The notes beneath the pieces are model-generated. The model had not been told where the DNA came from, made no database searches, and saw only the letters and a program-made list of their open reading frames with translations. Of a DNA stretch of 32,805 nucleotides, positions 2,987 through 32,676 are shown in pieces (within the stretch, counting starts at the first letter, position 1; every line of letters starts with the position of its first letter). The DNA is taken from NCBI RefSeq assembly GCF_900196725.1, contig NZ_FZMP01000231.1:1-32805 (forward strand). The letters are read 5' to 3'. The DNA is from Candidatus Methanoperedens nitratireducens. Lineage in GTDB: Archaea; Halobacteriota; Methanosarcinia; Methanosarcinales; Methanoperedenaceae. The position numbers and the translations under genes are program-made.

Positions 2987-4165
2987 TCACCTCTTTACCA
3001 CCATGGCAATGCCCTGGCCACCTCCGATACAGAGGGTCGCAATGCCGTATGCACCTTCCCTTCTTCTTAATTCGTGCACAAGTGTGACCAGTATCCTTGC
3101 GCCGCTCGCTCCTATGGGATGCCCGATCGCTATAGCGCCGCCGTTGACATTAACATTATCAGGATTCAGATCCAGTTCTCTGCTAACAGCTATGCTTTGC
3201 GCTGCAAAGGCTTCGTTGAGCTCTATGAGGTCAAGTTTACCGGCAGTTATGCCAGCACGCTCAATGGCTTTTCTGGCTGCGCAAACAGGACCCATACCCA
3301 TTATTTCGGGAGGAACGCCGCAGGCTGAATAGCTTTTGATTATTGCCATGGGCTCAATGCCTTTTTCTTTTGCTTTTTCTTCGGACATCAAGAGAACTGC
3401 AGCGGCTCCATCGTTGATACCTGATGCATTCCCCGCAGTTACTGTCCCGTCCTTTTTAAATGCAGGTTTTAGTTTTGCAAGTATCTCTTTTGTTGTTCCG
3501 AACCTGGGAAACTCATCCGTATCAAAGAGTATGGGTTCGCTTCTTGGCCGGGAAACTTCTACCGGGACAATCTCTTCCTTGAACTTCCCTGCCTTGATCG
3601 CGACTTGCGCATTATTCTGGCTTTTTGCAGAGAATTCATCCTGTTCTTCCCGTGTAATATTGTACTTTCCTGCTACGTTCTCTGCTGTTACTCCCATATG
3701 GTAGTTGTTGAAAATGTCCCATAATCCGTCATGTATCATCAAATCCACAACTTCATCGTTGCCCATCTTTGCCCCCCAGCGGTTTTTTTTCAGGGCATAC
3801 GGAGCCTGCGACATGGACTCTACTCCGCCTGCAAGTACGACATCAGCATCGCCGAGCATGATGGATTGTGCCCCCAGGGCAACTGATTTCAAACCCGAGC
3901 CGCACACCTTGTTCACGCAATAGGAAGGAACTCCTTCTGGAATCCCCGCACCGATTGCAGCCTGCCTTGCCACATTCTGTCCATGGCCCGCTGAAAGGAC
4001 GTTTCCCATGATGACTTCTTCAACTTCACTTTGCTCAATATCCGCCCTTCCCAGGGCATCTTTCAATACCACAGAACCAAGTTGACCGGGACCGAAATCC
4101 TTCAGACTTCCCCCGAATTTCCCAACTGCAGTTCTTGTAGCTGATACAATAACTACATTATTCAT
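2987..4165 (-). CDS. phaA: Acetyl-CoA acetyltransferase (thiolase)
   Basis: It condenses two acetyl-CoA to acetoacetyl-CoA, the first step of poly-3-hydroxybutyrate synthesis. Counted from the chosen start there are 392 residues with all three thiolase signatures: the acyl-accepting Cys88 in VCGSGLKS, His349 in [10 protein letters not shown], and Cys379 in CIGGGQG. These positions match typical biosynthetic thiolases to within a residue. A GTG codon at 4174 would add three residues, but it lies inside the ribosome binding site AAAGGTGA, which is correctly spaced for the ATG at 4165, so the ATG is preferred. The next gene (FabG type) begins 5 nt after this stop. It could also serve acetyl-CoA-dependent mevalonate synthesis. 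The palindrome 4188-4226 lies just upstream. Confidence 0.93.
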
Positions 4166-4187
4166 ATTTTTCACCTTTTTAACAAAT

Positions 4188-4226
4188 CCCCTGATAGTCT
4201 CCTGAATTAATTCAGGGTCTCAGGGG
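4188..4226. repeat. Nested palindrome between fabG and phaA in the PHA operon
   Basis: The perfect 16-bp palindrome CCTGAATTAATTCAGG (4201-4216) is enclosed by the arms CCCCTGA (4188-4194) and TCAGGGG (4220-4226). It occupies the only sizeable gap in the middle of the operon, just after the upstream reductase stop and just before the thiolase ribosome binding site. A related hairpin sits before the first PHA gene (8378-8397), so a role as a processing, attenuation or protein-binding site is plausible but inferred. Confidence 0.7.
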
Positions 4227-4229
4227 TCT

Positions 4230-4970
4230 TTATATTACTAATCCACCGTCCACACCAAGCACCGCCCCGTTGACAAAGTTTGCCTCATCCGAAGCAAGAT
4301 ACAAATATGCATGTGCGACATCCTCTGCTTTACCCAGCCTGCGCAGCGGAGTTTTTTCTTTCATCACTTCAAGGATTTTTTCGGGTACGTTTGAGGTCAT
4401 TGGAGTCATTATAAATCCCGGCGCTACTGCATTGATTCTTATCCCTTTTTTCCCGAGTTCCTTTGCTAATGTCTTTGTTAAGCCGATTAGCCCTGCTTTG
4501 GCGGCAGAATAATTGGCCTGACCGATATTACCATACAATCCAACAACAGAAGAAGTATTTATTATCACACCGCTTCCCTGACCGACCATAGAATCAACCA
4601 CTGCCTGGATGCAGTTAAAAGCTCCCTTAAGATTGATGTTAATAACCCTGTCCCACTGTTCCTCGGTCATTTTTGATATGAGGGCATCCTGAACAATACC
4701 TCCGTTATTTATCAGCACGTCGATTTTACCGTATTTCTCCAGGGTTTCAATAGCCATCTGTTTTGATTGCCGGTTATTGGATATGTCTAATTTAACAAAA
4801 AACCCCTCGCCTCCTGTGTTCTTAATCTCTGCTACTGTTTCTCTACCGCTTTTATCATTTATGTCGGCTACAACGACTTTAGCCCCTTCTCTTGCAAACA
4901 GGAGCGCAGTCTCTTTACCAATACCGCTTCCCGCTCCTGTAATAATTACAACCTTATTTTCAAGTTTCAT
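4230..4970 (-). CDS. fabG: Short-chain reductase, FabG/PhaB type
   Basis: This is a second NAD(P)H-dependent 3-ketoacyl reductase of 246 residues, the normal family length. It has TGAGSGIG (11-18), the catalytic pair Tyr154 and Lys158 in QANYSAAKAG, the Ser of NTSS near 140, and a canonical C-terminus (PGFIMTPM, GAVLGVDGG). The usual NNAG motif reads NNGG (88-91), a small departure that most family members do not show. Its ATG directly follows the phaC stop (TAAG ATG), and the ribosome binding site AAAGGTGA lies inside the end of phaC, so the two are translationally linked. It is a plausible acetoacetyl-CoA reductase. Two reductases in one operon may differ in cofactor (NADH or NADPH) or chain length, which the sequence does not settle. 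Confidence 0.91.
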   Translation of the reverse strand: MKLENKVVIITGAGSGIGKETALLFAREGAKVVVADINDKSGRETVAEIKNTGGEGFFVKLDISNNRQSKQMAIETLEKYGKIDVLINNGGIVQDALISKMTEEQWDRVININLKGAFNCIQAVVDSMVGQGSGVIINTSSVVGLYGNIGQANYSAAKAGLIGLTKTLAKELGKKGIRINAVAPGFIMTPMTSNVPEKILEVMKEKTPLRRLGKAEDVAHAYLYLASDEANFVNGAVLGVDGGLVI

Positions 4971-4971
4971 C

Positions 4972-6132
4972 TTATTTCACCTTTAACCTACGGTTCTTTC
5001 TTTTTCGTTCAAGCTTCACTTGCCTGGCTTTTTCCGGCTTTCCGTTTCCAGTACCATCCGGAAGAGACCTCGGCTTTAACCACCTGGCAATACCGGGACA
5101 GACCTCTTTCTGTGATCTGGAACCCACGAAGATGCCTATATGTCCTGTAGGGAAAATCAGCGTCTCTTTATCAGAACTTGATACGGCATCATTCAGAGGT
5201 ACACTTGCATCAGTGGGAACCAGATGGTCAAATTCTGCCATGACGTTAAGAAGCGGCATGGAGATTTTTTTCAAATTAACCTTCTTTCCATTAAGCTCCA
5301 TCTTGTTTTTGATAAGCAGGTTCTTCTGGTAGCAGTCTTTCATGAACTGCCTGTAGGCTTCACCTGCCTGGTCGGGACTGTCGAATATCCATTTCTCCAT
5401 TCGGAGGAAATTCTTGACCGTTTCTTCATTGCGAAGTGAGCAGGCAGTATCGTTCGGCTTGCATTCGATTCGTTCGAATATACCTACATACTTGTCAATC
5501 ATAAGCCGGAACGGGTCCGTGAGCAAGAATCCAGAATTTAATAAATCCCCTGGTACTATCCCATAGTAATCCACGATCCTGTCTACGTCCAGGCCCCTTG
5601 CCCATATGTAAAGAAGCCCTTTATCAATATCGAAGTTTACAGGAGTCACCAGGGTAATCAGGTTTTTCACTTTTTCGGGGTGCAGTGCAGAGTACATCAC
5701 AGAAAGAGTACCTCCCTGGCACACACCGAGCAGCGTGATCTTATCCAATCCTGACTTCTCTCTGATGTTATCCACAGCATTATTTACGTAGCCATTCACA
5801 TAATCGTCAATTGTAAGGTATCTGTCCATACCTGTGGGATACCCCCAGTCGATGATATACACATCAAAACCCTCATCCAGAAGTTTTTTTATCACACTTT
5901 TATCGGGCTGGAGGTCCAGAATGTAGTAACGGTTCACAAGTGCGTACACTATGAGTATCGGAACCGGGTGCGGTTTTTCTACAGTTGGAATATAATGGAT
6001 AAGCTTCATCTTATCTTCGCAATAGATTATCTCGGAAGGTGTTGTTCCAACTGAGAAATCGGGGGAGTTCAAAAATAGTTCCATCCCTTGTTTGAATTTC
6101 TTATAATCTTCTATTAAATCAAGCTCGCTCAT
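4972..6132 (-). CDS. phaC: PHA synthase subunit PhaC, class III
   Basis: PhaC polymerises 3-hydroxyacyl-CoA into polyhydroxyalkanoate at the granule surface, and class III enzymes need PhaE. The alpha/beta-hydrolase fold carries a lipase-like box with cysteine as nucleophile (GVCQGG 136-141, Cys138), Asp302 in AEFDHLVP and His331 in PTGHIG, the full catalytic triad. The family motif IIDWGYP is at 93-99. At 386 residues it has class III length (about 355-360) plus a tail: residues from about 353 are a strongly basic, low-complexity extension ending in KRKNRRLKVK. The tail might bind nucleic acid or the granule surface, but that is only a guess. The ATG has AAAGGTG five bases upstream. phaE is directly upstream and a reductase directly downstream. 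Confidence 0.95.
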   Translation of the reverse strand: MSELDLIEDYKKFKQGMELFLNSPDFSVGTTPSEIIYCEDKMKLIHYIPTVEKPHPVPILIVYALVNRYYILDLQPDKSVIKKLLDEGFDVYIIDWGYPTGMDRYLTIDDYVNGYVNNAVDNIREKSGLDKITLLGVCQGGTLSVMYSALHPEKVKNLITLVTPVNFDIDKGLLYIWARGLDVDRIVDYYGIVPGDLLNSGFLLTDPFRLMIDKYVGIFERIECKPNDTACSLRNEETVKNFLRMEKWIFDSPDQAGEAYRQFMKDCYQKNLLIKNKMELNGKKVNLKKISMPLLNVMAEFDHLVPTDASVPLNDAVSSSDKETLIFPTGHIGIFVGSRSQKEVCPGIARWLKPRSLPDGTGNGKPEKARQVKLERKRKNRRLKVK

Positions 6133-6160: not shown

Positions 6161-6709
6161 CTATTTTTCCTCTGATAGCTCTTTGATCTTACTGGTTAAT
6201 TCTTTTACGGTTTTCTTGAGAGAATACAATTCTTTGTTTATCTCATCGATATCCGTCTTCGTAGGAAGATTCATCGGTTTCAGATAATTCTCTTCAAGCA
6301 TTTCCCGGTTATATTTCTGGAACTCCATGAAGCATGACATGAATTTTCCCATGTCAGAAGCAAAGTGACCTGAGCTCAGGAATTCCTTGAAGGTCTCGCT
6401 ATACGTTTCTACCCAGATCTTGTAAAATTCTTTATAATTTTCAGGATCGGTCTCTCCCTCCATCTCCGCTGCCATCTTTTCTCGCATCCTGCGCATTGCT
6501 TCCATGAAGACGCTCTGGAAGTTAATATTGGAATCCATCCCTGCTGCATAAAGGTTAACACCGATAGAGAACTCCTTCATCAATTTTTCGGATTTCTCAC
6601 GCGCCGGACCCAGGGCAGGCATATCCATTAGCCTGCCATAGGTAGCCTCGTAGTTTTTTAACCAGATATCAAAAAATTCACGGGTGGATTCAAAACCGGA
6701 TTTTTCCAT
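6161..6709 (-). CDS. phaE: PHA synthase subunit PhaE (third copy of the PhaE-like unit)
   Basis: PhaE is the non-catalytic partner of class III PhaC. From the ATG at 6709 the protein has 182 residues and contains two copies of the motif found four times in the upstream gene: FESTREFFDIWLKNYE near the start and NYKEFYKIWVETY in the middle. The C-terminus is a heptad-rich helix (INKELYSLKKTVKELTSKI), a likely coiled coil. An in-frame ATG at 6796 would overlap the upstream gene by 53 nt. Its 29 extra codons re-read a conserved stretch of that gene in the wrong frame, so I prefer 6709, although no strong ribosome binding site precedes either start. The PhaC gene follows after 28 nt. The family call rests on position and repeat pattern, not on a catalytic motif. 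Confidence 0.8.
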   Translation of the reverse strand: MEKSGFESTREFFDIWLKNYEATYGRLMDMPALGPAREKSEKLMKEFSIGVNLYAAGMDSNINFQSVFMEAMRRMREKMAAEMEGETDPENYKEFYKIWVETYSETFKEFLSSGHFASDMGKFMSCFMEFQKYNREMLEENYLKPMNLPTKTDIDEINKELYSLKKTVKELTSKIKELSEEK

Positions 6710-6743
6710 ATTTAAACCGTGCCTGTGGAGCTGGCGTATGATT

Positions 6744-7814
6744 TCACCAGGCTCTTTGATATGCTGTAAATGTGTCCGCGTATATCCTGGTCGCATCCTT
6801 TAATGGCTCAAACATCTCCTTAAACGGGCTGAGCGTGGGCGTGTTCTCAAAGAAGTTATCAAATGCCTTTTCATATGTTTTTGCCCAGAGGTTATGAAAT
6901 TCTTTATATGCCTCCGGATCAGTGGTCTGTTTTGATAATTCCCTGGTCTTCTGTGATAGTTTTTCAAGGGTTGCTATCCAGGACTTGTAGAGGCTAAGAT
7001 TAACATTTGCACTCCGCACGAAGTACTCTAATACGTCCTTTGAATGCCGCATGGATTGAGCATCGAAAAACCTGCCGTAGGTCTCCTGATATGTATTCTG
7101 CCATAAGGTATAAAATTCCTTATAAGCTTCGGGACTTGCATTTCCCCTGGAGATTTCTGACGACTTCGCAGAAAGCTTCAGCATGGAATCAATCCATGGC
7201 TTGTATAGCTTTGCATATGAATCTTTCCATAGTTTTGATATATGCTCAAAGGTATCTGAATAGACATCAGGTGCGCCTGTAAGGTTCTCAAATATCTCTT
7301 TTACATTTTGCCTGAATGGTAGTGCAAGAAGCTCATCGAATATTTTTCCATACGATTTTATCCACATATCATAGACTTCTTTATATTTTGTAGAATCCGG
7401 TTGGCCCTGGAGTACCTCGCGGGTCGCCCTGGAATTCTCCTCTAACTCGGTAATCCATGACCTGTAGATTTTATTCGATTCCTCTGCGCTGACCAGAAGT
7501 TTTTCAAATGTTTCCTTACCTGATTCCAGGGTCGGGATCTGATAAAATTTACCGGAGCTGTTCTGGTAGGCTTTCACCCATTCGTCATAAAATTCCTTAT
7601 ATTTTCCCGGTGCAGCGTCCTTTGAGAGTTCAACTGCCTTCTCAAACAGTTCTCCTGTGGATTCGAGCCAGGGCTTGTATAATTTTAAATAGGAATCCTC
7701 CCACACTTTTGAAACTGCTGTGTAGCTGTCAGTCTGTGTCTTGGGACTTTCTTTCGTTTCTTCGCTCACATCTTTTTTCTCTTCAATTTTTCTTTCTTCA
7801 GTTCTTTTTACCAT
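6744..7814 (-). CDS. PhaE-like protein with two tandem 158-residue units
   Basis: This protein of about 356 residues begins with a charged, disordered leader rich in Lys, Glu and Thr. Two tandem units follow: SKVWEDSYLKLYKPW starts unit 1 (38-52, counting from the upstream GTG at 7823) and SKLWKDSYAKLYKPW starts unit 2 (196-210). Within each unit the motif YKEFYxxWxxxY occurs twice, at about 75, 147, 234 and 306. Being all-helical, aromatic-rich and beside phaE and phaC, it is probably a PhaE paralogue, granule scaffold or phasin-like protein. The ATG at 7814 has GAGTGA upstream and is preferred to the GTG at 7823. The frame ends TGG TGA at 6744, and a third unit continues in another frame in the next gene. 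Confidence 0.8.
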   Translation of the reverse strand: MVKRTEERKIEEKKDVSEETKESPKTQTDSYTAVSKVWEDSYLKLYKPWLESTGELFEKAVELSKDAAPGKYKEFYDEWVKAYQNSSGKFYQIPTLESGKETFEKLLVSAEESNKIYRSWITELEENSRATREVLQGQPDSTKYKEVYDMWIKSYGKIFDELLALPFRQNVKEIFENLTGAPDVYSDTFEHISKLWKDSYAKLYKPWIDSMLKLSAKSSEISRGNASPEAYKEFYTLWQNTYQETYGRFFDAQSMRHSKDVLEYFVRSANVNLSLYKSWIATLEKLSQKTRELSKQTTDPEAYKEFHNLWAKTYEKAFDNFFENTPTLSPFKEMFEPLKDATRIYADTFTAYQRAW

Positions 7815-16052: not shown

Positions 16053-16072
16053 TTAGTCAAGGAGGCTATAAT

Positions 16073-17053
16073 ATGGTTAACGAAAAGTTAGCAGAGCTTG
16101 TAAAGACTTCAAAACCATCTGTGGCCGTAGTCGGGCTTGGTGGTGCAGGATGCAATATAACGACTTGGATAGCAGAAAAAGGAATGGCAGGCGGAAAAAT
16201 AATCGCAGCTAACACTGATGTGAATCACCTGAGTACAATGAGTAAAGCTGATAAGCTGATCTTACTCGGCGAAAAATTATGCAAAGGACATGGATGCGGT
16301 GGATACCCTGAGATGGGTTCCCAGGCGACCAAAGAGAACATTTCAGAGATAAAAACAGAACTTGAAGGAACAAACCTCGTATTCCTCGTAGCAGGTCTCG
16401 GAGGCGGAACAGGAACAGGAGCGATACCTGTAGTTGCAGAAGTGACCAGAGAGGTCGGTGCACTTACAATCGCATGTGTTACGATTCCTTTCAAGATCGA
16501 GCAGTTCAGGAGAGAGAAAGCCAGGGAAGCAATCCAGGCGCTCACCGAGAGCTGTGACTCGACAATCGTGATCGATAACTCAAAGTTAAGGGAAGTTGCA
16601 GGCAACCTCCCGCTGAAAGAAGCTCTTGCAGTTGCAAATGCACTGGTAGGAGCCTTTGTAAAGAACATTACCGAAACGATCACCCAGCCGAGCCTTATCA
16701 ACCTTGACTACGCAGATCTTCGCGCAGTAATGGAGCGCGGCGGCATCTCGTCCATAGGCATTGGCGAAGGCGACGGTGAAGAGAGAGTAACGAAAGCAGT
16801 CTCACAGGCGCTTGCAGTACCGCTGCTTGATATCTCCGATATGTCAGCTACATACGGTGTGCTTATTCACATCGTCGGTGGAGAAGACATGACGCTCGAA
16901 GAGGTCGCAGTAACCGGTGAATTGATAATGGACAAGGTCCCCAATACAAAGAGAGTAATCTGGGGCGCAAAGGTCGATGACCAGCTTACCGGAAGAGTAC
17001 GTGTAATGGCAGTCCTGACAGGTGTCAAGAGCCCATTCATGGAAGGTCAGTAA
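16073..17053 (+). CDS. ftsZ: FtsZ-family tubulin-like GTPase, first copy
   Basis: FtsZ polymerises with GTP into the division ring. The GTP-binding glycine loop GGGTGTG is at 110-116, and the nucleotide-binding start GLGGAGCN is at 21-28. The catalytic T7 loop with NLDYADL is at 210-216. The ATG at 16073 has AAGGAGG at ideal spacing; a longer frame from 15998 would only add leader sequence. The protein has 326 residues and ends right after the C-terminal subdomain (VKSPFMEGQ), with no linker and no conserved C-terminal tail. The T3 region reads LCKGHGCGGYPE, where most FtsZ proteins have a TRGLGAGGNPE-like sequence. It is about 78% identical without gaps to the copy at 22676, so the pair arose by duplication rather than being the ancient FtsZ1/FtsZ2 pair. 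Confidence 0.9.
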   Translation: MVNEKLAELVKTSKPSVAVVGLGGAGCNITTWIAEKGMAGGKIIAANTDVNHLSTMSKADKLILLGEKLCKGHGCGGYPEMGSQATKENISEIKTELEGTNLVFLVAGLGGGTGTGAIPVVAEVTREVGALTIACVTIPFKIEQFRREKAREAIQALTESCDSTIVIDNSKLREVAGNLPLKEALAVANALVGAFVKNITETITQPSLINLDYADLRAVMERGGISSIGIGEGDGEERVTKAVSQALAVPLLDISDMSATYGVLIHIVGGEDMTLEEVAVTGELIMDKVPNTKRVIWGAKVDDQLTGRVRVMAVLTGVKSPFMEGQ

Positions 17054-22646: not shown

Positions 22647-22675
22647 ACAAAGCGAGTAATCAGCGGAGGCTGATT

Positions 22676-23788
22676 ATGACTAGAGAAGACTTATTGGAAA
22701 AAGTAAAGACTGCACGACCATCTGTTGCTGTTGTTGGGCTGGGTGGTGCAGGCTGTAACATCGCAACATGGATAGCAGATAAGAAACTGGCGGGCGGTAA
22801 AATAATAGCTGCCAATACGGATGCTGGTCACCTGAGTACAATGACACGGGCGGATAAGATCATGCTGCTCGGTGAGAAACTGTGCAAAGGGCACGGCTGC
22901 GGTGGATTCCCGGAAAGAGGCGCTGAGGCTGCAAGGGAGAACCTGGCTGAAATGAGGGAGGAACTGAATGGCACTAACCTTCTGTTCCTGGTAGCGGGTC
23001 TTGGAGGCGGGTCAGGCACAGGCGCAATACCCATAGTTGCAGGTATAGGAAGGGAAATAGGCGCTCTCACGATTGCGTGCGCAACCATACCGTTCACCAT
23101 TGAAATGACAAGGCGCGAAAAGGCGCGCGATGCCATAAAGGCGCTTGCTGAGGTCAGCGATTCTATAGTTGTCATCGATAACTCAAAGCTCAGGGAGGTC
23201 GCAGGCAACCTGCCTCTTAGGGACGCTCTTGCTGTAGCGAATGCACTTATCGGTTCTTTCGTTAAGAACCTGACTGATACCATAACGCAGCCAAGCCTTG
23301 TGAACCTTGATTATGCCGACCTTCGCGCAGTAATGGAACGCGGCGGCATATCATCGATAGGCATAGGCGAAGGCGACGGTGAAAACCGCGTCGAGAAGGC
23401 AGTCTCACAGGCGCTTTCCACACCGCTGCTTGATATCACCGACGTATCGACCGCGTACGGGGTCCTTATCCATATCGTGGGCGGAGAGGACATGACCCTT
23501 GACGAAGTGGCTGTTGCAGGCGAGCAGATAATGGAAAAAGTCCCCAATACAAAGCGCGTGATATGGGGTGCCAAGGTCGACCAGTCATTGACAGGCAAGG
23601 TGCGCGTGATGGCTGTGCTTACAGGTGTCACATGCCCGTTCCTATCAGGCGAAGTCAAGCAAAAGGCCGCTCCCCAGATACCCAGGGAAGTCGTGAAACC
23701 GCTGCGGCAGGCTATGGAGCACATGATGCAGGCACAGGAATCCCACGAGACGATCTCAAGGGCTGCAGTGTTCAGCAAGGAGAAGTAG
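22676..23788 (+). CDS. ftsZ: FtsZ-family tubulin-like GTPase, second copy
   Basis: This 370-residue paralogue of the protein at 16073 aligns without gaps over the first 322 residues (251 identical by hand count). It keeps GLGGAGCN (21-28), the T7 loop NLDYADL (210-216) and the distinctive LCKGHGCGGFPE. Its glycine loop is GGGSGTG (110-116) rather than GGGTGTG. Unlike the first copy it has a C-terminal extension of about 48 residues (VKQKAAPQIPREVVKP, then a Met/Gln/Glu-rich helix and RAAVFSKEK), which could bind a division partner or the membrane. It has its own TATA element and a GGAGG ribosome binding site. Two such similar copies suggest recent duplication followed by divergence of the tails. 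Confidence 0.9.
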   Translation: MTREDLLEKVKTARPSVAVVGLGGAGCNIATWIADKKLAGGKIIAANTDAGHLSTMTRADKIMLLGEKLCKGHGCGGFPERGAEAARENLAEMREELNGTNLLFLVAGLGGGSGTGAIPIVAGIGREIGALTIACATIPFTIEMTRREKARDAIKALAEVSDSIVVIDNSKLREVAGNLPLRDALAVANALIGSFVKNLTDTITQPSLVNLDYADLRAVMERGGISSIGIGEGDGENRVEKAVSQALSTPLLDITDVSTAYGVLIHIVGGEDMTLDEVAVAGEQIMEKVPNTKRVIWGAKVDQSLTGKVRVMAVLTGVTCPFLSGEVKQKAAPQIPREVVKPLRQAMEHMMQAQESHETISRAAVFSKEK

Positions 23789-28087: not shown

Positions 28088-28651
28088 ATGAGCAACGAGA
28101 TTATTATAGGCATAAGCGGCGCGTCGGGCATTCAGTACGGGATACGCCTGCTTGAGGCTCTAAAAGACATGAGAGGGTTCGAAACTCATTTAGTTATTTC
28201 GGAATCTGCAAAAAAACTTATCAAAATAGAAACTGATTATTCCGTCCGCGATGTTGAGTCGCTGGGCGACCATGTGTACGGCGATGATGATTTCACCGCT
28301 CCGGTCGCAAGCGGTTCGCACAGGTCAAAAGGCATGATAATTGCACCGTGCAGCATGAAGACGCTTGCATCTGTGGCTGTCGGGATGTCGGATACTCTCA
28401 TCTCAAGGGCAGCGGATGTTTGCCTGAAAGAAAAACGCCCTCTCGTGCTAATGGTGCGTGAAACTCCGTTGAATCTGATCCATATAGAAAATATGGCAAG
28501 AGCTGCGAGGGCTGGTGCTTCGATACTCCCCGCCTGCCCTGCGTTCTATCCGAAGCCGGATTCTATTGAAGATATTACTAATTTCATGGCAGGTCGCGCC
28601 CTTGACCTTCTGGGCATCGGGCATGACATGTACAGGCGGTGGAAGGGATGA
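28088..28651 (+). CDS. ubiX: Flavin prenyltransferase UbiX
   Basis: UbiX attaches a dimethylallyl group to FMN to make prenylated FMN, the cofactor of UbiD decarboxylases. The 187-residue protein has the FMN-binding start IIIGISGASGIQYG (5-18), the loop GSHRSKGMIIAPCSMKTLASVAVG, and the phosphate-binding region RPLVLMVRETPLNLIHIENM, all typical. Length is normal. The gene overlaps the next gene (UbiD type) by ATGA, so cofactor synthesis and the enzyme that uses it are coupled. With aconitase X nearby, it probably supports the anhydromevalonate phosphate decarboxylase of the archaeal mevalonate pathway. Confidence 0.95.
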   Translation: MSNEIIIGISGASGIQYGIRLLEALKDMRGFETHLVISESAKKLIKIETDYSVRDVESLGDHVYGDDDFTAPVASGSHRSKGMIIAPCSMKTLASVAVGMSDTLISRAADVCLKEKRPLVLMVRETPLNLIHIENMARAARAGASILPACPAFYPKPDSIEDITNFMAGRALDLLGIGHDMYRRWKG

Positions 28652-29922
28652 GCTTGCGCAAATTTATAGAGCGACTTAAGGCTGAAGGAAAGCTCAGGGA
28701 GGTCAAAAAACCTCTCTCGCCTGTGTACGGGGTCTCAGCCACGGTCGGAACTGAGCCTGCGCTGTTTACCAATGTTAACGGCTCCAGGGTTATCATGAAT
28801 ATCCTTTCCTCAAAGGAACTTCTTGGCGAGGCTCTCGGAGTGGCACCCGACAGCATAATAAAATATCTCTCTTCGCGCCCGCCTGAAGGTGAAGTAAAAC
28901 TCGCAGGGGATTCACCTGCCAAAGAAGTTATTGAAAAACCCGACCTTTCAAAGCTCCCCATACTCACGCATTTTGAAGGCGACGGCGCCCCGTATATTAC
29001 CGCCGGTGTCGTGGTATCAGAATACGGGGGAGTAATGAACGCCTCTATCCACAGGCTCAGGGTAATAGGGAAAAACAGGCTTGCGGCACGGCTTGTTGAG
29101 TTCCGGCATACGTATAATCTTCACAAAAAAGCAGCTGAAAAAGGTGAGCCGCTGCCCATTGCGATAGTTATCGGCATGGACCCGGTAACGCTATTTGCCG
29201 TCTCAACCCGCGTGCCTGAGGGAAAAGAGTTCGAATATGCCTCGGCGCTAAAAGGCGAGCCTGTTGAACTGTTCGAGTGCGAGAACGGCATAAAAGTCCC
29301 GCATGCTGAGATAGTGCTTGAAGGTTACATACATCCCACGGAAGTCGCGGATGAAGGACCTTTCGTGGATATCAGCGGCACATACGACCTGGTAAGGAAA
29401 CAGCCTGTCATTCACCTGACAAACATGATGCACAGGCGCGATCCCATCTATCATGCCCTGATGCCGGCAGGGAGCGAGCACCATATATTAATGGGAGTTC
29501 CGTACGAGCCGCTGATATATAACGAAGTGAAAAAGGTCGCAGATGTCAGGAACGTGGCTCTCACGCCCGGGGGATGTTATTATTTCCATGCAGCCGTGCA
29601 GATACACAAGAACAGCGATGACGATGCGAAGAAAGCCATCGAAGCGACGTTCGCCGCCCATAAGAGCCTGAAGCACGTTGTTGTCGTGGATGAGGATATC
29701 AATATCTTTGACCCGAATGATATCGAGTTCGCGATAGCTACCAGGGTAAAGGGAGATGAGGACATATACATATATCCGAATGTCAGGGGCAGCACACTTG
29801 ACCCGCGCTCTGAGAATGGTATCGGGACCAAGGTTGGGTTTGATGCGACGATGGATATGAGCAAGAAATGGAAATTTGAGAGGGTGCCGAGACCTAAAAT
29901 AACCGCAGATGAATGCAGATGA
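28648..29922 (+). CDS. UbiD-family decarboxylase, probable anhydromevalonate phosphate decarboxylase
   Basis: This enzyme uses prenylated FMN to decarboxylate its substrate. In archaea of this type the partner of aconitase X is trans-anhydromevalonate 5-phosphate decarboxylase, giving isopentenyl phosphate. The 424 residues show the UbiD blocks: ITAGVVVSEYGGVMNASIHRL, IAIVIGMDPVTLFA, EIVLEGYIHPTEVADEGPFVDISGTYD (with the catalytic Glu and acidic cluster) and KHVVVVDEDINIFDPNDIEFAIATR. The ATG at 28648 overlaps the ubiX stop. The final residues KITADECR are encoded by a dispersed 30-bp repeat (29901-29930), so the natural C-terminus may have been altered. The function is inferred from ubiX and acnX as neighbours; a different UbiD substrate cannot be excluded. 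Confidence 0.88.
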   Translation: MSLRKFIERLKAEGKLREVKKPLSPVYGVSATVGTEPALFTNVNGSRVIMNILSSKELLGEALGVAPDSIIKYLSSRPPEGEVKLAGDSPAKEVIEKPDLSKLPILTHFEGDGAPYITAGVVVSEYGGVMNASIHRLRVIGKNRLAARLVEFRHTYNLHKKAAEKGEPLPIAIVIGMDPVTLFAVSTRVPEGKEFEYASALKGEPVELFECENGIKVPHAEIVLEGYIHPTEVADEGPFVDISGTYDLVRKQPVIHLTNMMHRRDPIYHALMPAGSEHHILMGVPYEPLIYNEVKKVADVRNVALTPGGCYYFHAAVQIHKNSDDDAKKAIEATFAAHKSLKHVVVVDEDINIFDPNDIEFAIATRVKGDEDIYIYPNVRGSTLDPRSENGIGTKVGFDATMDMSKKWKFERVPRPKITADECR

Positions 29923-29930
29923 ATGCAGAT
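29901..29930 (+). repeat. Left inverted repeat of the nuclease cassette
   Basis: A 30-bp sequence starting AACCGCAGATGAATGCAGAT carries three GCAGAT units. It matches the reverse complement of 31167-31196 at 27 of 30 positions. It overlaps the last codons of the UbiD-type gene and ends right before the ribosome binding site (AGGAGA) of the nuclease gene. Sequences of this GCAGATGAACGCAGAT type are widely dispersed repeats in many prokaryotic genomes. Confidence 0.8.
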
Positions 29931-29938
29931 AGGAGAAT

Positions 29939-31156
29939 ATGACAAAGATAAAAAGTCTATATGATGCTATAAACTATCAAAAACCAGAGAACCAATGCAC
30001 AAATTTTTTGGCTTTTCTTCTTGAAAAATTACCAAATAAAAAAATAATTGATGGTATATGCAAAAACTCAGGGTTAACTATTAATGAAGATATGCTTAGT
30101 GTAAAGGTTCAGTATCCATTAAAAGATGGTATCAGTATCCCAGATGCAATAATAACATTTTCAAACCGAAAATACCTAATAATCGAAGCAAAAATGTCTG
30201 ACGGAGGTTTTAAAAAAACCCAATTTATAAATCATTTCAACGGCGGTAAAGAGGAGTTTGGGGGAAAAGAAAACATATGGATGTTATTCTTGTCTGGAGA
30301 TGATTATATCCCGAGCGAATTAAATGAATTCAAGAAAAATCATCCAGAACGAATCGGCTTCTTATCTTGGCATTCTCTGTTAACATTACTTGAGGAATAT
30401 AAGGCATCTCTTGGCGAAAGATATGAAATAATAATAGAAGAATTTTCAAAATTCTTATCACATAATGGAATTAGGAAGGTAATACCAATGGATAATAAAG
30501 AATTAGAAAATTTTATTGAGAACTATCCCAACGAAGAAAAAAAGAAAAGGGCATCATTGGAAAAGTTTTCCAAAACAATTAATAAAATACAAGAAAAAAT
30601 CATAACCGATTTTGAAGATGTGGAACCAAAACATGACAAAACCGATTTCCCTTGCTTTTATAGATGTCTAAAGATCGCTGGTTGGCATTTTGATTATTCA
30701 AGTTATATATTTTTAGATATTATATCAAAAAAGATAGGGGTCGTATTAACAGGATATGAAGATATAGATGAGTATAGTAAGGGTCAAAATAAAGAAATCA
30801 AGGAAGAATTTCTAGGAAATTGGGATGAAAAGTATAAGGATAAATATAAAGTTGATAGTGAATTATGTGCTTTAACGTGGTTTCAGAATTATGAAGATGA
30901 TGATGAATATCCAATTAAAGCCGCCCATTTTAAAATAATAGAAGGAACAAGCGGCAAACCAATTAAACCCGGGAATTTGCCAGCATTTGATATTCGTTTT
31001 TATTTTGGATATGTTCATGAACTTGAAATCGAAAAATTGAATTCGTATCCTGAAATAATTGCGAAGGATTTTAATAAATTATTTAATAATTATATAAAAA
31101 GTAATGAATTAACAAGAAAGTCTAAGAAAGCCACTTTCGCCAGAAAAGGAAATTGA
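29939..31156 (+). CDS. PD-(D/E)XK-type nuclease-like protein, probably acquired
   Basis: The 405-residue product has a nuclease-like core near its N-terminus: IPDAIITFSNRKYLIIEAKM (about residues 67-86), where Asp and the ExK motif fit the PD-(D/E)XK active site. LKDGISIPD precedes it, and FINHFNGGKEE with IWMLFLSGDDYIPSE follows, as in restriction-like nucleases of the PD-(D/E)XK type. The C-terminal half (FPCFYRCLKIAGWHFDYSSY, ALTWFQNYEDDDEYP) has no family I recognise and could read a target or partner. The gene is much richer in A and T and in Lys, Asn and Ile codons than its neighbours. It sits between inverted repeats in the middle of a mevalonate cluster, which indicates transfer. A defence or mobile-element role is plausible. 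AGGAGA directly precedes the ATG. Confidence 0.72.
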   Translation: MTKIKSLYDAINYQKPENQCTNFLAFLLEKLPNKKIIDGICKNSGLTINEDMLSVKVQYPLKDGISIPDAIITFSNRKYLIIEAKMSDGGFKKTQFINHFNGGKEEFGGKENIWMLFLSGDDYIPSELNEFKKNHPERIGFLSWHSLLTLLEEYKASLGERYEIIIEEFSKFLSHNGIRKVIPMDNKELENFIENYPNEEKKKRASLEKFSKTINKIQEKIITDFEDVEPKHDKTDFPCFYRCLKIAGWHFDYSSYIFLDIISKKIGVVLTGYEDIDEYSKGQNKEIKEEFLGNWDEKYKDKYKVDSELCALTWFQNYEDDDEYPIKAAHFKIIEGTSGKPIKPGNLPAFDIRFYFGYVHELEIEKLNSYPEIIAKDFNKLFNNYIKSNELTRKSKKATFARKGN

Positions 31157-31166
31157 AAATGCGGGT

Positions 31167-31196
31167 ATCTGCGTTCATCCGCGTTCATCTGCGGTT
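31167..31196 (-). repeat. Right inverted repeat of the nuclease cassette
   Basis: This 30-bp sequence beginning ATCTGCGTTCATCCGCGTTC is the reverse complement of the left copy with three mismatches. It starts 11 bp after the nuclease stop codon. Together the two copies enclose the gene almost exactly, leaving only a ribosome binding site at one end and ten bases at the other. Confidence 0.8.
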
Positions 31197-31205
31197 AATA
31201 ATCAG

Positions 31206-31472
31206 CTCACCTCAAAGAACGCAGAGAACGCAAAGTGAGGCGGTAACCCCCTGGTATGGAAAAGCAACAGCGTGGCGAAACGGAACACGGATGACACGGA
31301 TTGGACGGATTTTCACGGATACGAAATCCGTGAGCATCCGTGTCACCCGTGCAATCCATGTTCTATCGCGATTACTCCGGATTGAAAAACTATTGCAGGA
31401 TTTCTTCTTTATTTCCTTCTATGAACCGCAGTTCATGGCTGACTTTGCGAACTTTGCGCCCTCTGCGGTGAG
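31206..31472. repeat. Nested imperfect palindromes filling the gap before acnX
   Basis: This 360-bp intergenic stretch holds no credible gene. An outer pair (31206-31240, starting CTCACCTCAAAGAACGCAGA, and 31441-31472, ending CTGCGGTGAG) is inverted. Inside it lies a long imperfect palindrome (31284-31364) with arms of about 38 bp made of CACGGAT-type words (GAACACGGATGACACGG on the left, ending CCATGTTC on the right). Such GCAAAG, CACGGAT and GCAGAT words belong to dispersed repeat families that give spurious Thr/Arg/Met-rich translations. The DNA could extrude cruciforms or, as RNA, form stable hairpins before acnX. Confidence 0.75.
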
Positions 31473-31518: not shown

Positions 31519-32676
31519 ATGTATCTCACGCCTGAAGAAGAGGCTATCTTCAATGGAGAACGCGGCGCCACATACCAGAAAGCCATCGAAATACTCGCGG
31601 CTCTTGGCGACATCTACGGCGCAGACAGGCTTATCCCCATAAAAAGCGCCCAGATCGCCGGAGTTTCCTACAAGACCATAGGCGAGGCTGGGCTTGAATG
31701 GATATCCGACTTAAAAGGCAAAGTGGCAGTACCTTCCATACTCAACCCCGCAGGAATGGACAGGGAATGCTGGAAAGAGATGGGTGTAAGCCAGGATTTT
31801 GCTGATAAACAGCAGAAGATAATCAGGGCATATGAGGCGCTAGGCGTAAGAACTGAATGCACCTGCACGCCGTACAGCATCTTTGACAACCTTGCAGGTT
31901 TGGGCGACCATGTGGCATGGAGCGAATCATCAGCCATCTCATATGCCAATTCGGTCATCGGGGCGCGAACGAACAGGGAGGGAGGACCAAGTGCTCTCTC
32001 GGCTGCGCTGATAGGGAAGACGCCAAATTACGGGTTTCATTTGGATGAGAACAGAAAACCCGATATTTTGATCCGGGTCGATGCGGCTCTACACAATTCA
32101 GACTATGGGGCGCTGGGGTATATCGTCGGTGAGATGGTGGGAGATAAAGTTCCTTTTTTTAAACTTAAATCCGCACCATCGAAGGACGAACTTAAATCTC
32201 TTGGGGCTGCAATGGCTGCCTCGGGTGCAGTTGCGTTATATCATGTTTCCGGTATCACTCCTGAAGCCGGCAAATACGACCCGCCTGAGGAGAAAATCAT
32301 GATCGAGCAGGGGCAGATAAAAGAGGTTTACTCATCAGGCGAGCCGGATTTAATAGCGTTCGGGTGTCCCCATAGCAGCGTTGAAGAGCTTGTGGGACTG
32401 GCGCGGCTTTTAGACGGCAAAAAGGTTAAAAAAGACGTATGGATATGCACCTCGCGCGCCATCAAGAAAAAGCATCCCGAACTTGTAAAGCAAATCGAAA
32501 GAAGCGGCGCGAAGGTTTTTTGCGATACCTGCATGGTAGTGTCTCCTGCAAGTGAGAGGTTTAACTGTATGATGGTGAACTCCGGGAAGGCGCATAAGTA
32601 TGTGCCGAACCTGTGCGGGGTGAAGAGTATTATGGCGACGACGGAGGAGTGTGTTAAGGCGGCTGTGAGAGACTAA
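31519..32676 (+). CDS. acnX: Aconitase X catalytic subunit, probable phosphomevalonate dehydratase large subunit
   Basis: Aconitase X of archaea dehydrates mevalonate 5-phosphate to trans-anhydromevalonate 5-phosphate, just before the UbiD-type decarboxylase step. The 385-residue protein shows the DUF521 blocks MYLTPEEEAIFNGERG, ADRLIPIKSAQIAGVSYKTIGEAGLEW, ILNPAGMD and CTCTPYSIFDN. They are followed by GDHVAWSESSAISYANSVIGARTNREGGPSA, and Cys residues in FCDTCMVVSP and NLCGVKS likely hold the iron-sulfur cluster. Length is normal. GGAGG lies seven bases before the ATG. The small (DUF126) subunit gene is not seen in the remaining 130 bp of the window. ubiX and ubiD lie upstream, separated by the nuclease cassette. 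Confidence 0.92.
   Translation: MYLTPEEEAIFNGERGATYQKAIEILAALGDIYGADRLIPIKSAQIAGVSYKTIGEAGLEWISDLKGKVAVPSILNPAGMDRECWKEMGVSQDFADKQQKIIRAYEALGVRTECTCTPYSIFDNLAGLGDHVAWSESSAISYANSVIGARTNREGGPSALSAALIGKTPNYGFHLDENRKPDILIRVDAALHNSDYGALGYIVGEMVGDKVPFFKLKSAPSKDELKSLGAAMAASGAVALYHVSGITPEAGKYDPPEEKIMIEQGQIKEVYSSGEPDLIAFGCPHSSVEELVGLARLLDGKKVKKDVWICTSRAIKKKHPELVKQIERSGAKVFCDTCMVVSPASERFNCMMVNSGKAHKYVPNLCGVKSIMATTEECVKAAVRD

Follow-up and report, generated by a model that had tools for sequence, protein, structure and literature searches.

A putative PD-(D/E)XK nuclease gene between the arms of a dispersed palindrome in the ubiD-acnX gap of Candidatus Methanoperedens

UbiD and AcnX catalyze successive steps of the mevalonate route in archaea. 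In the stretch of Candidatus Methanoperedens DNA analyzed here (the window, 32,805 nt; genome G000), their genes are separated by a gene with inverted copies of one short repeat on either side, which raises the question of how a gene comes to stand inside such a frame. The two arms (29900-29931 and 31166-31197) are 32 nt long, identical at 29 of 32 positions and spaced 1234 nt apart, an arrangement with a window-wide chance expectation of 4e-6 if equal base frequencies are assumed. The left arm supplies the final codons and the stop codon of ubiD, and the framed ORF lies 7 nt from the left arm and 9 nt from the right. A previous sequence-only reading had noted inverted copies bounding an AT-rich gene; both observations are upheld, the arms now extending to 32 nt and the GC content of the ORF being 0.297 versus 0.462 for the window. 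The features of the locus are as follows (genomes are designated by G numbers, contigs and fetched loci by L numbers).

28088-28651, UbiX (Pfam)
28651..29922, + strand, UbiD-family decarboxylase, left neighbor (Pfam)
29900..29931, + strand, left arm of the GAT palindrome, TAACCGCAGATGAATGCAGATGAATGCAGATA, overlapping the 3' end and stop codon of ubiD
29939..31156, + strand, putative PD-(D/E)XK-type nuclease gene, 405 aa (motif in three homologs, Foldseek)
31156..31161, + strand, AAAATG, probable relic of a lost MntA start codon (comparison with contig L030 of G009, by eye)
31166..31197, - strand, right arm of the GAT palindrome (inverted-pair match)
31206..31472, no strand assigned, GAG palindrome, a second family, with arms at about 31206-31239 and 31443-31472
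31519..32676, + strand, AcnX (aconitase X), right neighbor (Pfam)

The GAG palindrome of the window is split by an insert bearing a GGAT hairpin (31286-31351), unlike its counterparts in G005 and G007, which are tight hairpins. Two more palindrome families, GAG and GGAT, are present between the right GAT arm and acnX.

By its motif and a weak fold match, the framed protein is PD-(D/E)XK-like, the class first proposed for it. Residues E17, P68-D69, E83-x-K85, and Q95 are invariant in three homologs, and P68-D69 with E83-x-K85 presumably constitute the PD-(D/E)XK signature. The AlphaFold model has an overall pLDDT of 51, with most ten-residue blocks of residues 31 to 160 at 60 to 81, and its predicted core (blocks at pLDDT 53-81) follows the order alpha-beta-beta-beta-alpha-beta, as in the PD-(D/E)XK superfamily. 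Foldseek analysis of this model returned no match at E ≤ 0.001; the best matches were a NucS-like protein (2vld, E 1.4e-3), MspJI, and LlaBIII, with Card1, Can2, and EcoO109I lower down. We take the top matches to be PD-(D/E)XK nucleases by fold class. Comparison with Pfam and NCBIfam left all families below the cut-off, and PADLOC gave a single, weak match to PDC-M15A (E 0.0062). Homologs were detected in 3 of the 149 genomes searched, the window's own included: the G009 homolog occupies the same ubiD-acnX site, and the G023 homolog lies elsewhere, without GAT arms. A search of genome_contigs yielded 1 record of a relative, and there were none among the viral contigs, plasmids, or phages searched. 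The protein probably serves in defense, like many of the genes that share its niche.

What, then, are the arms? With up to 3 mismatches allowed, the 27-nt core of the repeat occurs at 15 places in the genome of the window, compared with 0 for a reversed-core control. All 31 genomes of the genus have the repeat, with 1 to 84 places per genome, as do 20 of 294 genomes (9 of 108 genera) in a sample of the phylum. The genomes are assemblies, many comprising over 100 contigs, with some contig ends close to repeats. Arms of approximately 30 nt pair as hairpins, with loops of 7 to 13 nt, mostly 12 to 13 nt, in the 15 tight hairpins measured. When folded, a tight pair from the window's own genome (C88) forms a hairpin around a 13-nt loop, with a z score of -12.95. 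Orientation was counted for consecutive arm pairs in 11 genomes, a subset of the 31, drawn as two sets: the first comprised 149 places (an overlapping place in G014 was dropped and 25 of the 28 places in G017 were used) and the second all 133 places. Convergent order was seen for 24 of 25 pairs less than 60 bp apart and for 13 of 16 spaced by 60 to 500 bp (1 of 4 when the second set is taken separately). It was seen for 5 of the 15 pairs with a spacing of 0.5 to 2 kb, a class that includes the pair of the window, and for 5 of 21 with a spacing of 2 to 10 kb; the convergent excess is thus absent beyond 500 bp in these genomes. Because near pairs converge and a tight pair folds as a hairpin, we interpret the GAT repeat as a dispersed palindrome. 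It is a dispersed, hairpin-forming inverted doublet with an intergenic position (by eye, at the loci read), and in this the repeat, though not the framed nuclease, is REPIN-like. Many arms stand alone: 104 of 141 distinct arms in the fetched loci have no partner within 17 nt, and 17 of these 104 keep loop-like sequence, compared with a mean of 0.7 upon shuffling and 1 and 2 of 104 in positional controls. The 15 copies, the hairpin nature of the repeat, and the two extra palindrome families before acnX go beyond the earlier description of the locus. Phage-like viral contigs L135 and L136 carry GAT and GAG hairpins between genes, which suggests that viral genomes acquire the repeats as well.

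The ubiD-acnX gap is itself an exchange hotspot. We found acnX in 30 of the 31 genomes, and ubiD and acnX on one stretch at 20 loci in 19 genomes, including the window and two G009 contigs; in the 11 other genomes, no ubiD was present within the stretch fetched around acnX. Measured from where the ubiD alignment ends, and so counting the stop codon, the gap before acnX ranges from 3 nt (G001 and G015) to 7607 nt (G025), in contrast to the alignment ends of ubiX and ubiD, which are only 3 to 9 nt apart in 15 loci. In G001 and G015, acnX directly follows the ubiD stop codon with no gap, and this empty-site comparison bears out the proposal that the window carries an insertion between the two genes. 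The gap of the window holds the nuclease, and that of G009 (contig L030) holds the nuclease, MntA, and a HepT relic. HicB-type cargo is present in the second G009 contig, G014, and G024 (named by eye in G009 and G024). The closest relative, G005 (acnX 94%), has a DEAD helicase, PLD, MntA, and the relic at this position; G007 has PIN, HNH, MntA, and the relic; G006 has DUF2254, MntA, and the relic; G025 has Cas3, Cas8, and Cas7; G027 has DUF433, DUF5615, and the relic; and G016 has YhcG, with further cargo types at other loci. The name MntA rests on an NTP_transf_2 match of the G005 copy and was extended to the rest by likeness (by eye), and the HepT/HEPN names at this locus were likewise assigned by eye. 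The HepT-like toxin gene is truncated at the repeat in G005, G006, G007, G009, G024, and G027, preceded in each except G027 by an MntA-like gene, of which the G024 copy looks defective. In L030, the ORF identified as ubiD by eye (3908-4984) has 358 aa, versus 423 aa in the window; the second G009 contig has a full-length ubiD.

Arms recur in this gap around changing contents. A left arm stands behind ubiD in 7 of the 20 loci (by eye), namely in G000, both G009 contigs, G025, G026, G027 (degenerate), and G022 (split by an insert). The right arm was recognized in 9 of the 20, plus two fragments (by eye). Both arms are present in G000, G009, G025, and G027, where they enclose different cargo. The left arm is absent in G005, G006, and G007, and consequently the cargo of these genomes is unframed. 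A tight GAT hairpin was found at this gap in none of the genomes compared. Similar short MITE-like inserts with an inner hairpin (CACGTATTGC..GCAATACGTG) occur in L087 (G022) and L064 (G014), in each case within a GAT arm, and in a different arm in each genome.

Comparison with G009 suggests an order of events for the window. There, the nuclease stop codon overlaps the MntA start, and the HepT relic that follows extends as far as the right arm and into it. The window has an identical AAAATG, overlapping the final base of the nuclease stop codon as it does in G009, but joined straight to CGGGT and the right arm (by eye); CGGGT (31162-31166) is at the inner edge of that arm and matches the end of hairpin loops. 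The tight framing in the window is therefore best read as the product of a deletion; most simply, it looks secondary, through loss of MntA and the HepT relic. The sequence-only reading had seen, in the near-lack of other sequence between the arms, what looked like a minimal mobile unit or a repeat-mediated insertion, perhaps with the repeat as its target. The variable insert, the class of the protein, the cargo framed elsewhere, and the repeat as target all find support in the wider comparison, but the minimal mobile unit does not: the right junction is best read as a deletion, and the nuclease with its arms was found at no second locus in the 149 genomes. Loop-like sequence is kept on the inner side of the right arm in G005, G007, G024, and G027 (by eye), and in G027, AGAT precedes this loop; together, these remnants suggest that the two arms were formerly one hairpin.

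Arms also enclose unrelated cargo at other sites, as had been anticipated for the repeat. At a site between a gyrB-like gene and an MNT gene (both names by eye), G009 has an 883-aa ResIII-HNH (helicase-HNH) protein between arms 61 and 22 nt off, and G017 has a TPR protein between arms with loop-like sequence kept. The same site in G000 consists of a left arm, the loop, and three right-arm bases, that is, a near-empty site, and in G005, the GAT arm is absent and 600 bp of other sequence is present instead. This near-empty orthologous site and the retained loops are what speak for the repeat as a possible target. At a site in the cob cluster (named by eye), G022 has a type IIG enzyme and a GxxExxY protein between arms, and G028 a PDC-M11A protein and a small ORF. 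One orthologous site in G014, G024, and G017 has three contents and a common right arm, with no left arm in G014. At the position of a tight hairpin in G007, only its left arm is present in G000 and G005, broken at the edge of the loop (by eye). Framed contents unrelated to the nuclease thus include helicase-HNH, TPR, Cas3/Cas8/Cas7, and DUF433 with DUF5615 proteins.

We favor, at a probability of roughly 55%, the explanation that the framed nuclease is cargo inside a split dispersed palindrome at an exchange hotspot, which would have entered at the loop edge and been trimmed by a later deletion. A hairpin would once have stood behind ubiD; foreign DNA (the nuclease, MntA, HepT, and others, according to lineage) would have entered at the edge of its loop; and in the lineage of the window, a later deletion would have removed MntA and the relic of HepT, so that the nuclease alone came to stand close between the arms. 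Most likely, the process would be triggered when the hairpin tip is cut or a template switch occurs there and DNA is captured, and the cutting enzyme could be the nuclease itself. The genus-wide copies, the same arms with different cargo, the near-empty site, and the loop remnants at arm edges are the observed parts of this scheme. Since convergent order is not in excess above 500 bp, some framings may be coincidence. The unframed cargo of G005, G006, and G007 and the lack of a tight GAT hairpin at ubiD-acnX in any genome compared likewise count against the scheme. Non-homologous end joining was rejected as the agent, as we found no Ku match in the genome of the window, and so was a RAYT, as the flanks fetched for the Y1 genes of this genome contain no GAT arm.

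A different explanation was suggested by the GxxExxY proteins (PF13366), whose genes occur in 25 of the 31 genomes of the genus. Ten of 30 fetched PF13366 loci of the genus contain GAT arms (18 arms versus 0.7 expected), and in five loci, the gene lies between convergent GAT arms in units of 469 to 622 bp, one of which holds an additional small insert. It was speculated that GxxExxY proteins and, separately, the nuclease family of the window could be palindrome-homing enzymes that recognize and cut dispersed hairpins at the loop edge, their genes being copied into the cut loop by repair, such that each palindrome is a homing site and the repeats serve as genome-wide docking sites for taking up and exchanging defense genes, a nuclease-driven counterpart of REPIN/RAYT. 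We scored framing blind to palindrome family, as inverted repeats of at least 20/24 nt within 400 bp; this threshold predates the PIN control but was chosen when framing was already known from some loci. Of 60 GxxExxY loci fetched, 39 were tested (full-length or nearly so, with flanks present), the other 21 being fragments or at contig ends. GxxExxY genes are framed in 10 of 18 tested Methanoperedens loci and in 7 of 21 from other Halobacteriota, by arms from several palindrome families, compared with 0 of 300 random sites and 0 of 27 PIN genes (27 of 30 PIN loci were tested, and three were left out for short flanks); the difference between 10 of 18 and 0 of 27 gives a Fisher p of 1.4e-5 if kinship is ignored. 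Outside the genus, PF13366 is present in 17 of 19 GAT-positive genomes (all positives of the phylum sample except the window's own genome) versus 6 of 20 GAT-negative genomes (from the 29 GAT-negative genomes of that family in the sample), with a Fisher p of 2.4e-4, kinship again ignored. Homing is also favored by the N-terminus encoded by an arm in L223 and by loop-like remnants beside the arms of L187, L188, L206, and L208 (by eye).

However, Cas, TPR, and helicase genes are framed as well, plasmid-borne bacterial GxxExxY genes are framed in 0 of 3 cases, and PIN genes, too, have an excess of GAT arms in their vicinity (5 arms versus 0.8 expected across 30 loci), although never as frames. 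The sample contains related loci, L188 and L207 being one orthologous site with L189 as its third copy, and L187 and L206 having 733 nt in common that extend past the arms. Profile comparison of the window nuclease with GxxExxY gave a probability of 0.4%, that is, no detectable similarity, and so the nuclease would represent another family sharing this niche. Altogether, we regard homing as unlikely, for GxxExxY and for the nuclease family alike. The counts nevertheless hint at a link, so far undescribed, between hairpin repeats and nuclease genes; in open-access full text, the GxxExxY name or accession was found as single mentions only. In L210, L211, and L215, from other Halobacteriota, the N-termini of GxxExxY proteins (for example, FTAENAESAE) resemble a translated GAG repeat, and this repeat may therefore supply start regions.

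Less likely again is that the arms are the terminal inverted repeats of a non-autonomous, MITE-like transposon, with the nuclease as a passenger moved in trans and the hairpins as internally deleted copies. A unit of 187 to 190 bp with GAT ends does occur at different loci (L091 and L094, and one-armed in L173), and GxxExxY units are present at several loci (L187, L206, L208, and the cob locus), as such an element would predict. Against it, an arm persists at orthologous sites while the content changes, loop-like sequence is kept beside the cargo, no consistent target duplication was seen (by eye), and the four Y1 transposase genes of its genome lack a GAT arm in flanks of up to 1.5 kb. Two independent repeat insertions on either side of the gene, in a hotspot tolerant of insertions, would fit the near-random orientation of distant arms, the GAG and GGAT palindromes also collected at the ubiD-acnX locus, and the frequency of partnerless arms, but we consider chance framing improbable given that the positions of the left and the right arm are shared by loci with different cargo and that the retained loop and the AGAT of G027 point to one former hairpin.

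Many prokaryotes have dispersed short palindromes, often of unexplained origin. If their loops were entry points for defense genes and a nuclease family homed there, the repeats would be explained, as would the turnover of small defense cargo without a transposase; the homing explanation also yields a claim about GxxExxY proteins that can be tested directly. P2- and P4-like phages reportedly have defense hotspots in which a single site holds exchangeable antiviral cargo; unlike these, the site described here is a gap in an archaeal chromosomal operon and is bounded by palindrome arms in part of the species. REPINs are described as dispersed intergenic inverted doublets of REP sequences, hairpin-forming and presumed mobile within genomes (PMC3116915). 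The GAT repeat resembles them in being a dispersed, intergenic, hairpin-forming inverted doublet, but differs in that cargo genes of up to kilobases lie inside the doublet, that GAT arms are absent from the flanks fetched for the four Y1_Tnp matches of the genome, and that the family associated with the repeat consists of PD-(D/E)XK genes rather than a RAYT. PF13366 (GxxExxY, PDDEXK_3) genes are PD-(D/E)XK genes likewise tightly framed by the same arms, but with no relation to the window nuclease detectable by profile comparison. IS621, of the IS110 family, uses a palindromic REP element as its insertion target (PMC11208160); a palindromic repeat as target is the shared trait, and the nuclease unit lacks a recombinase gene. 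Searches of open-access full text brought up neither the sequence strings of the repeats nor, among the papers listed, a description of cargo framed by palindrome arms.

Two further repeats were observed in the window, away from the framed gene. Positions 6401-7616 contain 51-nt direct repeats (five copies), probably encoding a repeat protein, and two 300-nt blocks (16072-16371 and 22675-22974) are 70% alike and probably belong to paralogous genes.
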